From: Shinella fusca
GTDB taxonomy: Bacteria > Pseudomonadota > Alphaproteobacteria > Rhizobiales > Rhizobiaceae
NCBI RefSeq assembly: GCF_014203155.1
Contig: NZ_JACHIK010000004.1
Location: forward strand, 62,001-126,000
Length of the DNA stretch: 64,000 nucleotides
Direction of reading: 5' to 3'
The position numbers were made by a program, and so were the translations under genes. The notes below the pieces were generated by a model. The model saw nothing but the letters and a program-made list of their open reading frames with translations. It ran no database searches and was not told where the DNA came from. Within the stretch, counting starts at the first letter, position 1. The number at the start of each line of letters is the position of its first letter. Shown here in pieces: positions 49,597 to 61,831 of the stretch.

Positions 49597-50478
49597 TCAG
49601 AGGAGGCCGTAGCGGCGGAGAATGCCGGCGATCTTCTCGTCCTGCTCCGCATTCGGCAGAAGGGCCGGCTGGCGGCTGGCGCCGACGGAAGAATCCTGCA
49701 GGTAGAGCGCGCGCTTGACCATCGCCGGGGCGAAGCCGAGGGCATAGAGATCCGTGCGGAAGGCGGCGAAGGTCGCCTGCTGCTTTTCCGCCTGCGCAAT
49801 GTCGCCCACGTTGTAGGCCTTGAGGAGATCGGCGAGCACCTGCGGCATGGCGTTGCCGAGGCCGGAGATGCAGCCGGCCGCGCCGTTCTGCAAGGCCCAG
49901 AGCACCAGATGGTCCGGGCCGGAATAGACCTCGAAGCCGTCCACCTCCTTCGCCACCTGGAGATAGGCTTCCAGCGTCTCCCTGGCGCCGCCGGAATCCT
50001 TTATGCCGGCGATGTTGCCGTGGCCGGCGAGCGTGCGCGCGGTCTCCGGCTCGATGTGGTTCTGCGTGCGGGCCGGGATGTCATAGAGATAGACCGGCGT
50101 CGTCACCGCATCGGCGACCGTCGAGAAATGGCGGATGAGGCCGTCCTGCGTGCAGGCGATGAAGAAGGGCGTGATGACGGCGATGCCCGTCACGCCGATG
50201 CGGTCGAATTCGCGCGCCAGCTTCAGCGTCTCGAAGGTCGCGGGCATGCCGGCATTGACGATGACCCTGACGCGTCCGCCCACCTCGTCGACGACCTCCT
50301 CCGTCAGGCGCACTTTCTCCTCGAAGGTGAGTGCCGAGAAGTCGCCGTTGGTGCCGGCGCACATGATGTTGTTGCCGGCCTCGACCTGGCGGCGGACCTG
50401 CGCGCGCGTCGCCTGATAGTTGACGGTCTCGTCCTCGTTGAAGCAGGTGACGAGGGCGACGAAGGCTTGTTTGGTCAT
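49597..50478 (-). CDS. DapA/NanA-family pyruvate-dependent aldolase or synthase
   Basis: A 293-residue class I (Schiff-base) TIM-barrel enzyme. The active-site tyrosine is in PVYLYDIPART and the lysine in NIAGIKDSGG. The 2-oxo-acid carboxylate loop reads AGTNGDFSALT in place of the G-T-T-G-E of DapA or G-S-T-G-E-N of NanA, so the second substrate should differ from both. Last gene of the importer operon, 25 bases after the ATPase gene. The divergent operon carries a sialidase-like hydrolase. The pairing suggests a cleaved or condensed 2-oxo sugar acid, but sialic acid itself is not supported. Confidence 0.85.
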   Translation of the reverse strand: MTKQAFVALVTCFNEDETVNYQATRAQVRRQVEAGNNIMCAGTNGDFSALTFEEKVRLTEEVVDEVGGRVRVIVNAGMPATFETLKLAREFDRIGVTGIAVITPFFIACTQDGLIRHFSTVADAVTTPVYLYDIPARTQNHIEPETARTLAGHGNIAGIKDSGGARETLEAYLQVAKEVDGFEVYSGPDHLVLWALQNGAAGCISGLGNAMPQVLADLLKAYNVGDIAQAEKQQATFAAFRTDLYALGFAPAMVKRALYLQDSSVGASRQPALLPNAEQDEKIAGILRRYGLL

Positions 50479-50503
50479 CGGTCTTCCTTTGGCTCGGGCG
50501 CGC

Positions 50504-52126
50504 TCAGGAGGCGGCGCGTTGAAGGCGGGCGGCGCGATGGGCGGCCTGGACGTCGGGATCGGGGTCGAGGCCGGCGGAAAGGAGCGCACGGGTGTACTCC
50601 TGCCGCGGCGTCTCGAAGACCGCGCGCACCGTGCCGAGCTCCACGATATCGCCCTTCTGCATGACCATCACATGGTCGGCGAAATCGCGCACCACCGGCA
50701 GGTCATGGGCGATGAAGATGAAGGCGATGCCCATCTCGCGGCGCAGCTTGTCGAGCAGCTCGATCACCTGCGCCTGCACCGAGACGTCGAGCGCGGAGAC
50801 CGCCTCGTCGCAGATGATGAGCTGCGGTTCGAGCGCGAGCGCCCGGGCGATGGCGATGCGCTGGCGCTGGCCGCCGGAGAACTGGTGCGGGTAGCGGCCC
50901 ATGTGCTCCGGGCCGAGGCCCACCTGCACGAGGAGTTCGGCGACGCGCTCACGCCATTTCGCCTTGGGCAGGATATCCGGGTGGATGACCCAGGCCTCGG
51001 AAATGAGCTGGAAGACCGTCATGCGCGGGTTGAGCGACTGGGTCGGGTCCTGGAAGACCATCTGGAGGTCGCGGCGCAGCTTGTAGAGCTCGGCCGGCGA
51101 CAGGGTGAAGAGATCGCGCCCCTTCCAGTGCGCGGTGCCGGCGTCCGGCTCGTCGAGCCGCAGGAGGATGCGGGCGAGCGTCGACTTGCCCGACCCGCTC
51201 TCGCCGACGACCGCCATGGTCTCGCCGGGCATGAGGTCGAAGGAGACGCCCTTCAGCGCCTCGAAGGAGCCGTAGGTCTTGCGCACGTCGCGCACGGAAA
51301 GGACCGGCTCGGCGCGGGCGGCGGGCGCGTGCATCTCGCCCTTGCCGGGCGCGGCGGCGATCAGCTTCTTCGTATAGGGATGCTGCGGGTTCTTGTAGAC
51401 CTCGCGCACCGTGCCGGCCTCCACCAGCACGCCCTTCTCCATCACCACGACGCGGTCGGCGATCTCCGCGACGACGCCGAGATCGTGCGTGATGATGAGG
51501 ACGCCCATGCCCGTCTCTTCCTGCAGTTCCTCAAGAAGGGCGAGGACTTCCGCCTGGACGGTGACGTCGAGCGCGGTGGTCGGCTCGTCGGCGATCAGGA
51601 GGTCCGGGCGCAGCGCCAGCGCCATGGCGATCATGACGCGCTGGCGCTGGCCGCCGGAAAATTCATGCGGATACTTGCCGAGCGAGCGTTCCGGCTCGGG
51701 AATGCCGACGCGCGTCATGAGCCGCAGCGCCTCGGCTGCCGCGGTGGCGGCGTCCGCCCCGTGGGTGGTGAGCGCTTCGCGGATCTGCCAGCCGACCGTA
51801 TAGACCGGATTGAGATGGCTGAGCGGATCCTGGAAGATCATGGCGATCCGCCGGCCGTTCACCGCGCGCCGCTCGTGCGGCGGCAGCTTGAAGAGGTCGA
51901 CGCCGTCGAGCAGGACTTCGCCTGAGGTGATGCGCCCCGGCGGCATGTCGATGAGGTTCATGATCGCCGAGGAGGAGACGGACTTGCCCGAACCGCTCTC
52001 GCCGAGGATCGCCAGCGTCTCGCCGCGGTCGAGATGGTAGGAGATGTCGCGCACGGCATGGACCACGCCGCTAGCGGTGTGGAACTCGACCGAGAGGTTA
52101 CGCACTTCCAGGAGATGGTCAGCCAT
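50504..52126 (-). CDS. Dipeptide-type ABC transporter, fused double ATP-binding protein
   Basis: A 540-residue fusion of DppD-like and DppF-like ATPases. The N-half has GESGSGKS, FSGGQRQRVMIAMAL, LLIADEPTTALDV and IITHDLGVV. The C-half has VGESGSGKST, FSGGQRQRIAIARAL and LIICDEAVSALDVSVQ. The D-E-A for D-E-P in the second Walker B is common in this group. It overlaps the DppC-like gene by eight bases. The fusion is frequent in alphaproteobacterial glutathione/oligosaccharide-like importers. Confidence 0.92.
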   Translation of the reverse strand: MADHLLEVRNLSVEFHTASGVVHAVRDISYHLDRGETLAILGESGSGKSVSSSAIMNLIDMPPGRITSGEVLLDGVDLFKLPPHERRAVNGRRIAMIFQDPLSHLNPVYTVGWQIREALTTHGADAATAAAEALRLMTRVGIPEPERSLGKYPHEFSGGQRQRVMIAMALALRPDLLIADEPTTALDVTVQAEVLALLEELQEETGMGVLIITHDLGVVAEIADRVVVMEKGVLVEAGTVREVYKNPQHPYTKKLIAAAPGKGEMHAPAARAEPVLSVRDVRKTYGSFEALKGVSFDLMPGETMAVVGESGSGKSTLARILLRLDEPDAGTAHWKGRDLFTLSPAELYKLRRDLQMVFQDPTQSLNPRMTVFQLISEAWVIHPDILPKAKWRERVAELLVQVGLGPEHMGRYPHQFSGGQRQRIAIARALALEPQLIICDEAVSALDVSVQAQVIELLDKLRREMGIAFIFIAHDLPVVRDFADHVMVMQKGDIVELGTVRAVFETPRQEYTRALLSAGLDPDPDVQAAHRAARLQRAAS

Positions 52127-60799: not shown

Positions 60800-60802
60800 C
60801 TG

Positions 60803-61831
60803 TCATCCCGTCCTGCGGAGGATTTCCTCCGCGATCTCCTTCAGCGTCTCCGGCCCGCCGAATCCGCCCGATTTCGCGATGATGCAATGTCCCTCGGCGT
60901 GCGCCAAGCCCAGGCCGGGCAGGCATTCCCCCATCAGGCGAAACCGCGTGATCCCCATTTTCGAAAGCACGGCCTCCGCCGTCGCCCCACCGGAAAGAAG
61001 CAATGTCGATGCGCCCTCCGTCAAGGCTGGGCAGACACTTTCGGCAAGCGCTAGCGAAACCGCCTGCCCCGTCGCGGCCGTCGCGCCCGGCACGGCCTGC
61101 ACCAGCGTGATCGCGCCCGCGTCACGCACGGCGCCGGGAAGGCGGCCGTTCGGCGCCGGCAGGTAGCGCGGATCGACGGCCGCGCGCAGCGCCTCGATCT
61201 GGGCAAGGGTGATCGGATCGCGCGAACCGATGACGAAGAGCCCCCTGCCCGCGGGGATTTCCGCGGCCCGCGGCGCTACATCCCCGGCCATCCGCTCGGC
61301 CAGCGCCTCGGCAAGGCCGCGCGCGCCGATGAGGAGGTCGACGCCGTCCTCGATCGCAAGATCGAGCGCCGCTGCCATGTCTTGCGCGGTCATCGTGTCG
61401 GGGATGCGGGCCCGCGCGGCATGCCGGCCGAGCCTTTCCGCGACGGAGATCGGCGTTTCCACGCCGAAGCCCTGCACATGGCCGTTCCTGACCACCCGGC
61501 CGAAGGCCGGGATCGCCGGCGCCACCAGCGCCGAGCGGAACGGCACGGCGTCGAGCTCTTCGGCGATATGGCCCTTGAGGCGGGAATCCACCTTCTTGAA
61601 GAGGCGCGTTCCGGGCGGCAGCGCGGCAAGCGCGGCGGCCGCCACGTCACGCGCCGCGGCGGCGTCGATCTCGCGCGAGGCAAGCGTGACCGAGAGAACG
61701 GCCGGGTTTTCCCGCACCGCCGCCGCAATGGCCCCGACATCCAGGGCCACCTCGACATGGAGCCCCCGGCTCGCGAAAGGCGCGGCCGTATCCAGCGCTC
61801 CCGTCAGGTCATCGGCGACTATGGCAAGCAT
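60803..61831 (-). CDS. Four-carbon acid sugar kinase family protein (DUF1537), D-threonate/D-erythronate kinase-like
   Basis: A 342-residue DUF1537 kinase, shorter than OtnK at 12818-14089 (423). The N-terminal domain starts MLAIVADDLTGALDTAAPFA and carries FKKVDSRLKGHIAEEL, the family's K-x-x-D-S-x-x-x-G motif. The C-terminal ATP domain has 'TLLLSGGATAEAVLSKMG' and ends with KSGGFGGPETL. The short form with PdxA2 as partner matches D-threonate/D-erythronate kinases (DtnK/DenK type). ATG 61831 is chosen as the family start. The gene has its own promoter at 61858-61887. Confidence 0.85.
   Translation of the reverse strand: MLAIVADDLTGALDTAAPFASRGLHVEVALDVGAIAAAVRENPAVLSVTLASREIDAAAARDVAAAALAALPPGTRLFKKVDSRLKGHIAEELDAVPFRSALVAPAIPAFGRVVRNGHVQGFGVETPISVAERLGRHAARARIPDTMTAQDMAAALDLAIEDGVDLLIGARGLAEALAERMAGDVAPRAAEIPAGRGLFVIGSRDPITLAQIEALRAAVDPRYLPAPNGRLPGAVRDAGAITLVQAVPGATAATGQAVSLALAESVCPALTEGASTLLLSGGATAEAVLSKMGITRFRLMGECLPGLGLAHAEGHCIIAKSGGFGGPETLKEIAEEILRRTG

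Follow-up and report, generated by a model that had tools for sequence, protein, structure and literature searches.

Which compound is broken down by a bacterial gene set that joins a sialidase-fold propeller to an aldolase, an alcohol dehydrogenase and a kinase/dehydrogenase pair of four-carbon (C4) sugar-acid metabolism? Such a set lies at positions 49597-61831 of a 64,000-nt window on contig NZ_JACHIK010000004.1 of Shinella fusca, whose genome comprises 4.85 Mb in 39 contigs, and all coordinates given here are positions in this window. The cluster is proposed to serve the catabolism of a ketoside of a seven-carbon (C7) 2-keto-3-deoxy diacid, most likely 3-deoxy-D-lyxo-hept-2-ulosaric acid (Dha), a proposal judged about equally likely to be right or wrong; we infer all of its reactions, the substrate and the role of the GntR regulator. 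An initial annotation had listed an importer, an exporter, a propeller lacking a signal peptide, an aldolase and a kinase/PdxA2 pair, and family scans located each of these where it had been placed.

Organization and conservation of the gene cluster

From a divergent promoter at ~56.6 kb, genes for an EamA exporter, a family 5 binding protein, two permeases, a double ATPase and a DapA-family aldolase run leftward, and genes for a BNR propeller, a PdxA homologue and an iron-containing alcohol dehydrogenase (Fe-ADH) run rightward; genes for a DUF1537 kinase and a GntR regulator are convergent on the latter. The PdxA start lies inside the ATGA at the end of the propeller gene, Fe-ADH begins 4 bases past PdxA, and 3 bases separate the kinase and regulator genes. 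All 11 named genes are intact at the coordinates given below, as determined by family scans (Pfam for ten, NCBIfam for the ATPase), and all are under purifying selection, with a median ratio of non-synonymous to synonymous differences (pN/pS) of 0.08-0.38 by rough Nei-Gojobori counts over seven orthologues per gene (four for EamA), the kinase being highest.

The propeller gene is present as a single copy in the S. fusca genome. From a scan of genome contigs, the best 80 of 171 propeller relatives were taken, 70 of which, from other species, carried full 21 kb stretches; the nearest is that of Sinorhizobium kostiense, with 90% identity. Ten genes keep an identical order and orientation in 67 of these 70 full-flank loci, so the arrangement is not due to chance, and the conserved order on which the initial annotation had made its candidate system depend is borne out in related genomes. 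The exceptions are two loci with a different DapA subtype nearby (L081 and L085; L and G denote loci and genomes) and one with neither kinase nor regulator in its fetched stretch (L082). The EamA-type exporter gene (55578-56450, minus strand; Pfam EamA 1.6e-19) occurs in only 26 of the 80 loci and is therefore accessory rather than core, contrary to its earlier inclusion in the system.

In whole-genome samples the propeller is uncommon: counting the source genome, it is present in 20 of 151 genomes of the family (E up to 1e-40), in 3 of 385 of the class (profile, 1e-40) and in 10 of 299 of the phylum (1e-20), and is absent from G725, which is the only further member of the genus appearing in the family sample. 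Among the 151 family genomes, 18 possess a close PdxA2 (E up to 1e-90), 20 the propeller and 17 both (Fisher 1.7e-18, a value that is indicative only, as the sampled genomes are related and not independent). The propeller genomes without a close PdxA2 (G703, G738 and G751) carry a more distant PdxA in the same locus, with 46-49% identity to a query. In S. meliloti, membership of SMb20144 in the orthologous cluster (pSymB, near 160 kb) was considered and could not be confirmed; an excerpt of PMC2848018 assigns this gene to an ABC transporter of 'other organic acids/alcohols'.

A five-enzyme module in wider relatives

A wider set of 36 further loci was drawn from plasmid records and genomes, leaving 28 after removal of close orthologues (L087 and L146-L152), in part from species already represented in the first set; some loci were detected by a query taken from the same locus, where the family had already been shown by Pfam or an earlier query. 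The module consists of a cytoplasmic propeller, a DapA-family aldolase, an Fe-ADH, a DUF1537 kinase and a PdxA2-type dehydrogenase, and all five families lie within the stretch in 26 of the 36 loci (19/28 without the close orthologues), including one on a plasmid of Subdoligranulum (Firmicutes). The gene order is scrambled between lineages, and the aldolase subtype varies among complete modules, always within the DapA family. Caballeronia and G626 encode kinase and PdxA as a single fused polypeptide. In L137 and L139, the aldolase, Fe-ADH, PdxA, kinase, GntR and propeller genes are consecutive on one strand, which argues for their joint expression there, as far as sequence can indicate; the L139 propeller contains one internal stop.

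The incomplete loci are of several kinds. L109 and L151 run to contig ends, the L151 aldolase lying at the opposite end of its contig, and L095 and L115 carry distant propellers (26-28% identity) with other neighbours. In L091 and L114, of the Pantoea ananatis type, the kinase alone was not detected. L089 and L112 place the propeller with only an SSS symporter and a short-chain dehydrogenase/reductase (SDR), to which L089 adds YhcH, and L120 and L144 are partial. The genomes of three of these loci hold further core genes: G712 (L144) has aldolase, kinase and PdxA at a distance of 11-17 kb from its propeller, the PdxA with one internal stop; G111 (L112) has a separate cluster of Fe-ADH, PdxA, kinase and aldolase; and G626 (L120) has its kinase-PdxA fusion elsewhere in the genome, the only such core gene found. 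Given the order kept among close relatives, the association of the five enzymes despite scrambling, the fusions and the co-occurrence across genomes, the cluster genes almost certainly serve one shared pathway. The earlier view of one dedicated catabolic system with importer, cytoplasmic propeller, aldolase, Fe-ADH and kinase/PdxA2 is thus supported.

Importers of four classes (ABC, SSS, TRAP and CitMHS) are freely swapped among the further loci. The S. fusca importer is of the ATP-binding cassette (ABC) type and comprises, all on the minus strand, a protein with two ATPase halves (50504-52126; GsiA, DppF and OppF-type NCBIfam models over two stretches), a DppC/OppC-type permease (52119-53039; Pfam BPD_transp_1 1.9e-32), a DppB/OppB-type permease (53050-53964; BPD_transp_1 8.3e-37) and a family 5 solute-binding protein (54052-55551; SBP_bac_5 5.6e-84), among whose PDB relatives are proteins that bind dipeptides, nickel and agrocinopine. 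Dpp/Opp-type ABC importers occur in two forms, with one double ATPase or with two ATPase genes; SSS symporters are found in Pantoea, Caballeronia and Cupriavidus versions, a TRAP importer (DctM and an NMT1-like binding protein) in L145, and a CitMHS permease in the Subdoligranulum version (L093).

Pantoea clusters add YhcH (Pfam DUF386 for L091; similar genes in L089, L113 and L114). E. coli YhcH is described, in an extract of PMC8141875, as an anomerase supplying open-ring N-acetylneuraminic acid (Neu5Ac) to its aldolase, and its presence favours a cyclic ulosonic-type substrate. An SDR oxidoreductase accompanies the SSS- or TRAP-type propeller clusters (L089-L092, L101-L103, L112-L114 and L145), sometimes together with YhcH. 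On the Subdoligranulum plasmid, two large esterase-like proteins of 614 and 627 aa precede the CitMHS permease, with Esterase_PHB above cut-off for the second only; these may hint at esterified substrate forms.

A close aldolase orthologue is present in 12 of the 151 family genomes, 11 of which carry the propeller. In the twelfth, G789 (L156), no propeller is found up to E 1e-40; it possesses the kinase, Fe-ADH and PdxA with an aldolase of 77% identity, together with a tripartite tricarboxylate transporter (TTT; TctA, TctB and TctC) and a D-isomer 2-hydroxyacid dehydrogenase. Transporters of the SSS, TRAP, CitMHS and TTT classes are suited to small molecules bearing carboxyl groups, and the TTT, TRAP and CitMHS importers of module variants point to an acidic substrate. 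No recognizable conjugate-splitting enzyme is found in the propeller-less variant, yet its aldolase, Fe-ADH, kinase and PdxA are kept together with a TTT importer, so it is more likely that the C4 acid is made within the pathway, by retro-aldol cleavage and reduction, than that it is imported ready-made. G712 (L157) has both entries, a propeller with an ABC importer and, beside the aldolase, TctA, a 2-hydroxyacid dehydrogenase and an Ldh_2 dehydrogenase. Most simply, the two entries would converge on one aldolase, each supplying it with a 2-keto diacid: in the propeller entry the keto carbon would be released from a ketoside, and in the dehydrogenase entry a 2-hydroxyl would be oxidized.

A proposed pathway for Dha

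From a 2-keto-3-deoxy acid, an aldolase of the DapA family should liberate pyruvate. Because the non-pyruvate product must be a C4 aldehyde acid if one reduction is to give a C4 sugar acid, the substrate would be a C7 2-keto-3-deoxy diacid, and Dha is the sole natural 3-deoxyheptulosaric acid known to us. In a Fischer projection drawn by hand, the D-lyxo hydroxyls of C4-C6 point left, left and right, and cleavage between C3 and C4 leaves C5 (left) and C6 (right) between CHO and COOH; with the CHO reduced and the formula turned, the order reads COOH, left, right, CH2OH, which is D-threonate. The stereochemistry of Dha fits a route through D-threonate. It sits in side chain D of rhamnogalacturonan II (RG-II). 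A passage of PMC12282258 places Dha and Kdo in side chains C and D of this polysaccharide, and Dha is reported in lipopolysaccharide cores of Rhizobiaceae in the title of Russa et al. 1991. The Dha used would probably come from plant pectin or bacterial cell surfaces.

The pathway would begin with ABC import of a small Dha-containing saccharide, whose ketosidic bond the propeller would cut to free Dha, as its fold, a conserved tyrosine, two arginines and its context suggest. The aldolase would then split Dha at C3-C4 into pyruvate and D-threuronate, an aldehyde that the Fe-ADH would reduce to D-threonate. By comparison with the known DtnK/PdxA2 pair, which the present enzymes match at the family level, the DUF1537 kinase would form D-threonate 4-phosphate, and PdxA2 would oxidize and decarboxylate this to dihydroxyacetone phosphate (DHAP) and CO2. 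One C7 diacid would thus give pyruvate, DHAP and CO2 in a redox-neutral balance, with one NAD(P)H used by the Fe-ADH and one made by PdxA2.

The propeller, aldolase and alcohol dehydrogenase

The propeller (56690-57886, plus strand; Pfam BNR_2 4.1e-64), a proposed ketosidase, begins with MDPQEIA and by eye has no signal peptide. Its AlphaFold model (pLDDT 81.2, poor at 283-314) matches sialidases best by Foldseek, with 1eur at E 3.2e-15 and TM 0.67 on the query, and nearly all of the 50 Foldseek matches listed are named sialidases, the exceptions being 4j9t (a design) and 5hx0 (unknown function). Asp boxes (S-x-D-x-G-x-x-W) lie at residues 189-196 and 237-244, so the fold and Asp boxes of glycoside hydrolase family 33 (GH33) are both present. 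Across 16 aligned homologues, 26 positions are invariant, including His34, Arg225, Arg315 and Tyr358. By motif and spacing, Tyr358 may correspond to the nucleophilic GH33 tyrosine (RgNanH R637-Y677), and Arg225 and Arg315 fit two of the three triad arginines, Arg315 the third; His34 stands in all 16 at the place of the first arginine, that of the RIP motif. Alignment to NanC by HMMER, together with RgNanH spacing, makes Arg225 the second triad arginine and puts His209, invariant in the 17 rows of a second alignment, at the position of the catalytic glutamate; the RgNanH counterparts, Glu559 and Arg575, are 16 residues apart. By these hallmarks, the propeller would be classed as a GH33 relative with a changed active site and not as a GH33 member.

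The DapA-family Schiff-base aldolase (49597-50478, minus strand; Pfam DHDPS 7.5e-56), a proposed 2-keto-3-deoxy-heptarate (Dha) aldolase, more likely starts at the ATG at 50478, since a reading frame begun at the GTG at 50589 would extend 86 bases into the ATPase gene. It narrowly misses the NCBIfam dapA equivalog (197.5 against a cut-off of 206.15). Its G-T-N-G-D loop had been described as unusual and was considered as a hallmark, an idea that was rejected, as GTNGD, GTNGE or GTTGE occurs in 9 of 10 aligned cluster aldolases and only the distant L095 differs. The Fe-ADH (58844-59962, plus strand; Pfam ADH_Fe_C 6e-47, Fe-ADH 4.2e-32) is a proposed D-threuronate reductase, and its NCBIfam neighbours, all below cut-off, are ErcA, sulfoacetaldehyde reductase, 4-hydroxybutyrate dehydrogenase and lactaldehyde reductase.

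The kinase and PdxA pair

The C4 sugar-acid kinase (60803-61831, minus strand; Pfam SBD_N 3.2e-21, NBD_C 3.9e-14) is a short DUF1537 protein of 342 aa, shorter than the solved members. It belongs to the family by score (SBD_N 76.6 against 25 bits, NBD_C 53.9 against 28.3 bits), possesses the motifs DDLTG, KKVDSRLKG, SGGATAE and KSGGFG, and is under purifying selection (dN/dS 0.18-0.28 in seven pairs). Its confident model (pLDDT 94.6) returned eight Foldseek rows at E <= 0.001, DUF1537-family structures led by 5dmh (3.5e-19), and its best profile match is to 4xfm (4.3e-26). DUF1537 includes the D-threonate kinase DtnK and the D-erythronate kinase DenK, according to part of PMC10971088.

The PdxA2-type dehydrogenase (57883-58839, plus strand; Pfam PdxA 2.6e-97), a proposed D-threonate-4-phosphate dehydrogenase, groups with PdxA2, being nearer to 4jqp (3.9e-83), 2hi1 (1.6e-81) and 6e85 (1.2e-78) than to 1ps6 (7.2e-48); 6e85 is the one PDB relative named D-threonate 4-phosphate dehydrogenase. 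D-threonate catabolism by DtnK and PdxA2, which leads to DHAP, was reportedly described by Zhang and colleagues in 2016, in a study cited by PMC10971088. The present pair resembles it in families and expected product and differs in its shorter kinase, its missed equivalog cut-offs and its association with a propeller, an aldolase and an Fe-ADH, and this last feature suggests that D-threonate is made internally and not imported. The source genome holds five DUF1537 matches and three PdxA homologues, a large investment in such chemistry.

Regulation

The divergent promoter region (56512-56640) contains two conserved TTGTCAA-type sites (56512-56519 and 56633-56640), with TTTGTCAA in 80 of 81 regions and CTTGACAA in all 81. 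Both contain TTGACA on the outgoing strand and may be candidate operators of the GntR/FCD regulator (60098-60799, minus strand; Pfam FCD 2.2e-25, GntR 8.7e-17) or simply -35 boxes. The kinase/GntR promoters carry a motif of their own, GTTGTTATC, in 44 of 76 cases and show a modest excess of the divergent-region motif, with a position weight matrix score of 6 reached by 21 of 76, as compared with 5.3% of single-base shuffles; the source-genome kinase promoter scores -0.9. These patterns do not establish one operator for all three transcription units. The regulator, whose best NCBIfam match is NanR below threshold (103.8 against 260), probably controls the pathway, and its control over all units is plausible.

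Weighing the proposal and its alternatives

Several observations count against the Dha proposal. Two GH33 hallmarks of the propeller, one arginine and the catalytic glutamate, are replaced by histidine, so ketoside hydrolysis is not secure. The proposed Dha release resembles that by the GH143 Dha hydrolase BT1020 of Bacteroides RG-II degradation, which forms one portion of a bigger, extracytoplasmic protein with two domains; the propeller matches BT1020 (5mqr) weakly by hidden Markov model (E 0.0027, 65 profile positions, 206-270), short of clear homology. The aldolase falls below the cut-off of every listed NCBIfam model, and its Subdoligranulum counterpart passes the dapA model (222.2 against 206.15). 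The kinase misses the DtnK model NF047819 (90.3 against 450 bits), as does the Caballeronia kinase-PdxA fusion (160.4 against 450), and PdxA misses the PdxA2 equivalog NF002891 (302.4 against 583) and passes the general pdxA model (341.2 against 290.35). By fold, the kinase matches 5dmh first (TM 0.75) and 4xgj only at TM 0.48; with 5dmh leading by fold and 4xfm by profile, the ranking singles out no one C4 acid. Given these missed cut-offs and this ambiguous ranking, the C4 acid may instead be D-erythronate or another. The simple scheme has no step for the SDR of the SSS and TRAP versions or for the 2-hydroxyacid dehydrogenases of the TTT variant, whose substrate may be a 2-hydroxy diacid, and the conservation of the divergent-promoter sites may be that of -35 boxes. 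No RG-II-specific glycosidase was noticed adjoining the clusters, and no systematic search for one was made.

In one alternative reading, the same route would act on a 2-keto-3-deoxy diacid that differs from Dha in stereochemistry or chain and would end at D-erythronate or another tetronate, with the propeller possibly a lyase or lactonase. The unsettled C4 acid, the existence of DenK and the altered propeller active site are in its favour; set against it are that DtnK, though below cut-off, is the best NCBIfam match of the kinase, and that the one natural diacid of this type known to us gives D-threonate. It is rather unlikely. The initial annotation had proposed the import of a conjugate of a ready-made C4 acid, followed by phosphorylation and oxidative decarboxylation to DHAP; the kinase/PdxA2 end of that scheme is retained here, but its beginning is less supported, because it leaves the aldolase and Fe-ADH without a step. 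These two enzymes could be given the other half if the conjugate joined D-threonate or D-erythronate to a 2-keto-3-deoxy sugar acid or other unit and the propeller split it. A kinase and PdxA of families acting on C4 sugar acids, a propeller and a Dpp/Opp-type importer would all suit such a compound, but we know of no such natural conjugate, and the propeller-less version, which keeps the four downstream enzymes with no recognized conjugate-splitting enzyme, makes this origin improbable.

Catabolism of a sialic acid (a Neu5Ac-, Kdn- or Kdo-type ulosonic acid) would explain the sialidase fold, the NanA-superfamily aldolase, the dedicated importer, the GntR-type regulator with its NanR match, and the YhcH and SSS symporter of some relatives, all likenesses to nan clusters. 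The aldolase is, however, far from the NanA cut-offs (109.1 against 281 and 86.3 against 382 bits), the propeller lacks a signal peptide and its active site is altered, and no NanE or NanK family, that is, no N-acetylmannosamine kinase or epimerase, is found among the 11 cluster proteins scanned. The downstream enzymes suit a C4 sugar acid, and the kinase/PdxA2 pair has no step on N-acetylmannosamine or arabinose; sialic acid catabolism was thus rejected as very improbable. Salvage of 4-hydroxythreonine for vitamin B6 draws on the pass of the general pdxA model and on a DUF1537 kinase that can phosphorylate 4-hydroxy-L-threonine (in a section of PMC10971088). This was also rejected, given the PdxA2-like PDB relatives and two further PdxA homologues in the genome (36-38% identity to the cluster PdxA), and since the importer, propeller and aldolase would be left unexplained, it has very little probability indeed. 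The Dha proposal can be extended to a complete pathway for Dha, among the rarest of plant sugars, as a sialic-acid-like route joined to the D-threonate route, in which the propeller would found a family of cytoplasmic Dha ketosidases akin to GH33 yet distinct from it and the module would also be fed free diacids in propeller-less variants; this extension is tentative and falls somewhat short of an even chance.

Other sugar-acid genes and features of the window

DUF1537 kinases also act in tetronate use through the 3-oxo-tetronate (OtnI/OtnC/OtnK) pathways, which employ an isomerase and a class II aldolase and not PdxA2. A second sugar-acid operon in the window (9958-14779, minus strand) encodes an aldehyde dehydrogenase, a xylose-isomerase-like TIM barrel, a class II aldolase, a full-length DUF1537 kinase and an Asp/Glu racemase, and its isomerase/aldolase/kinase trio resembles an OtnI/OtnC/OtnK-type tetronate route, the look-alike operon being placed at 9958-14089; an Iso_dh-family dehydrogenase lies further upstream (18962-20104, minus strand). 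Just past the kinase promoter, a short piece (61943-62240, plus strand) resembles by eye the N-terminal part of erythromycin-esterase-like proteins and is an apparent remnant. Translation starts read by eye indicate a 5-oxoprolinase-like set with biotin carboxylase at 30394-36552 and hydantoinase-like genes with another ABC importer at 37156-44530.

Implications

The set is currently annotated in rhizobia and Pantoea as exo-alpha-sialidase, PdxA and dihydrodipicolinate synthase family protein, and in Caballeronia as sialidase family protein and 4-hydroxy-tetrahydrodipicolinate synthase. In the searches made of the open-access literature, neither a described Dha catabolic route nor a paper that mentions exo-alpha-sialidase alongside both PdxA and dihydrodipicolinate synthase was found. 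If the Dha proposal is true, the gene set is mis-named in rhizobia, Pantoea, Caballeronia and the Subdoligranulum plasmid, and what becomes of an RG-II sugar in soil and gut could be tested with a few purified enzymes. The set occurs in many root-associated bacteria, in which it most likely serves the uptake and breakdown of an unusual C7 acidic sugar.

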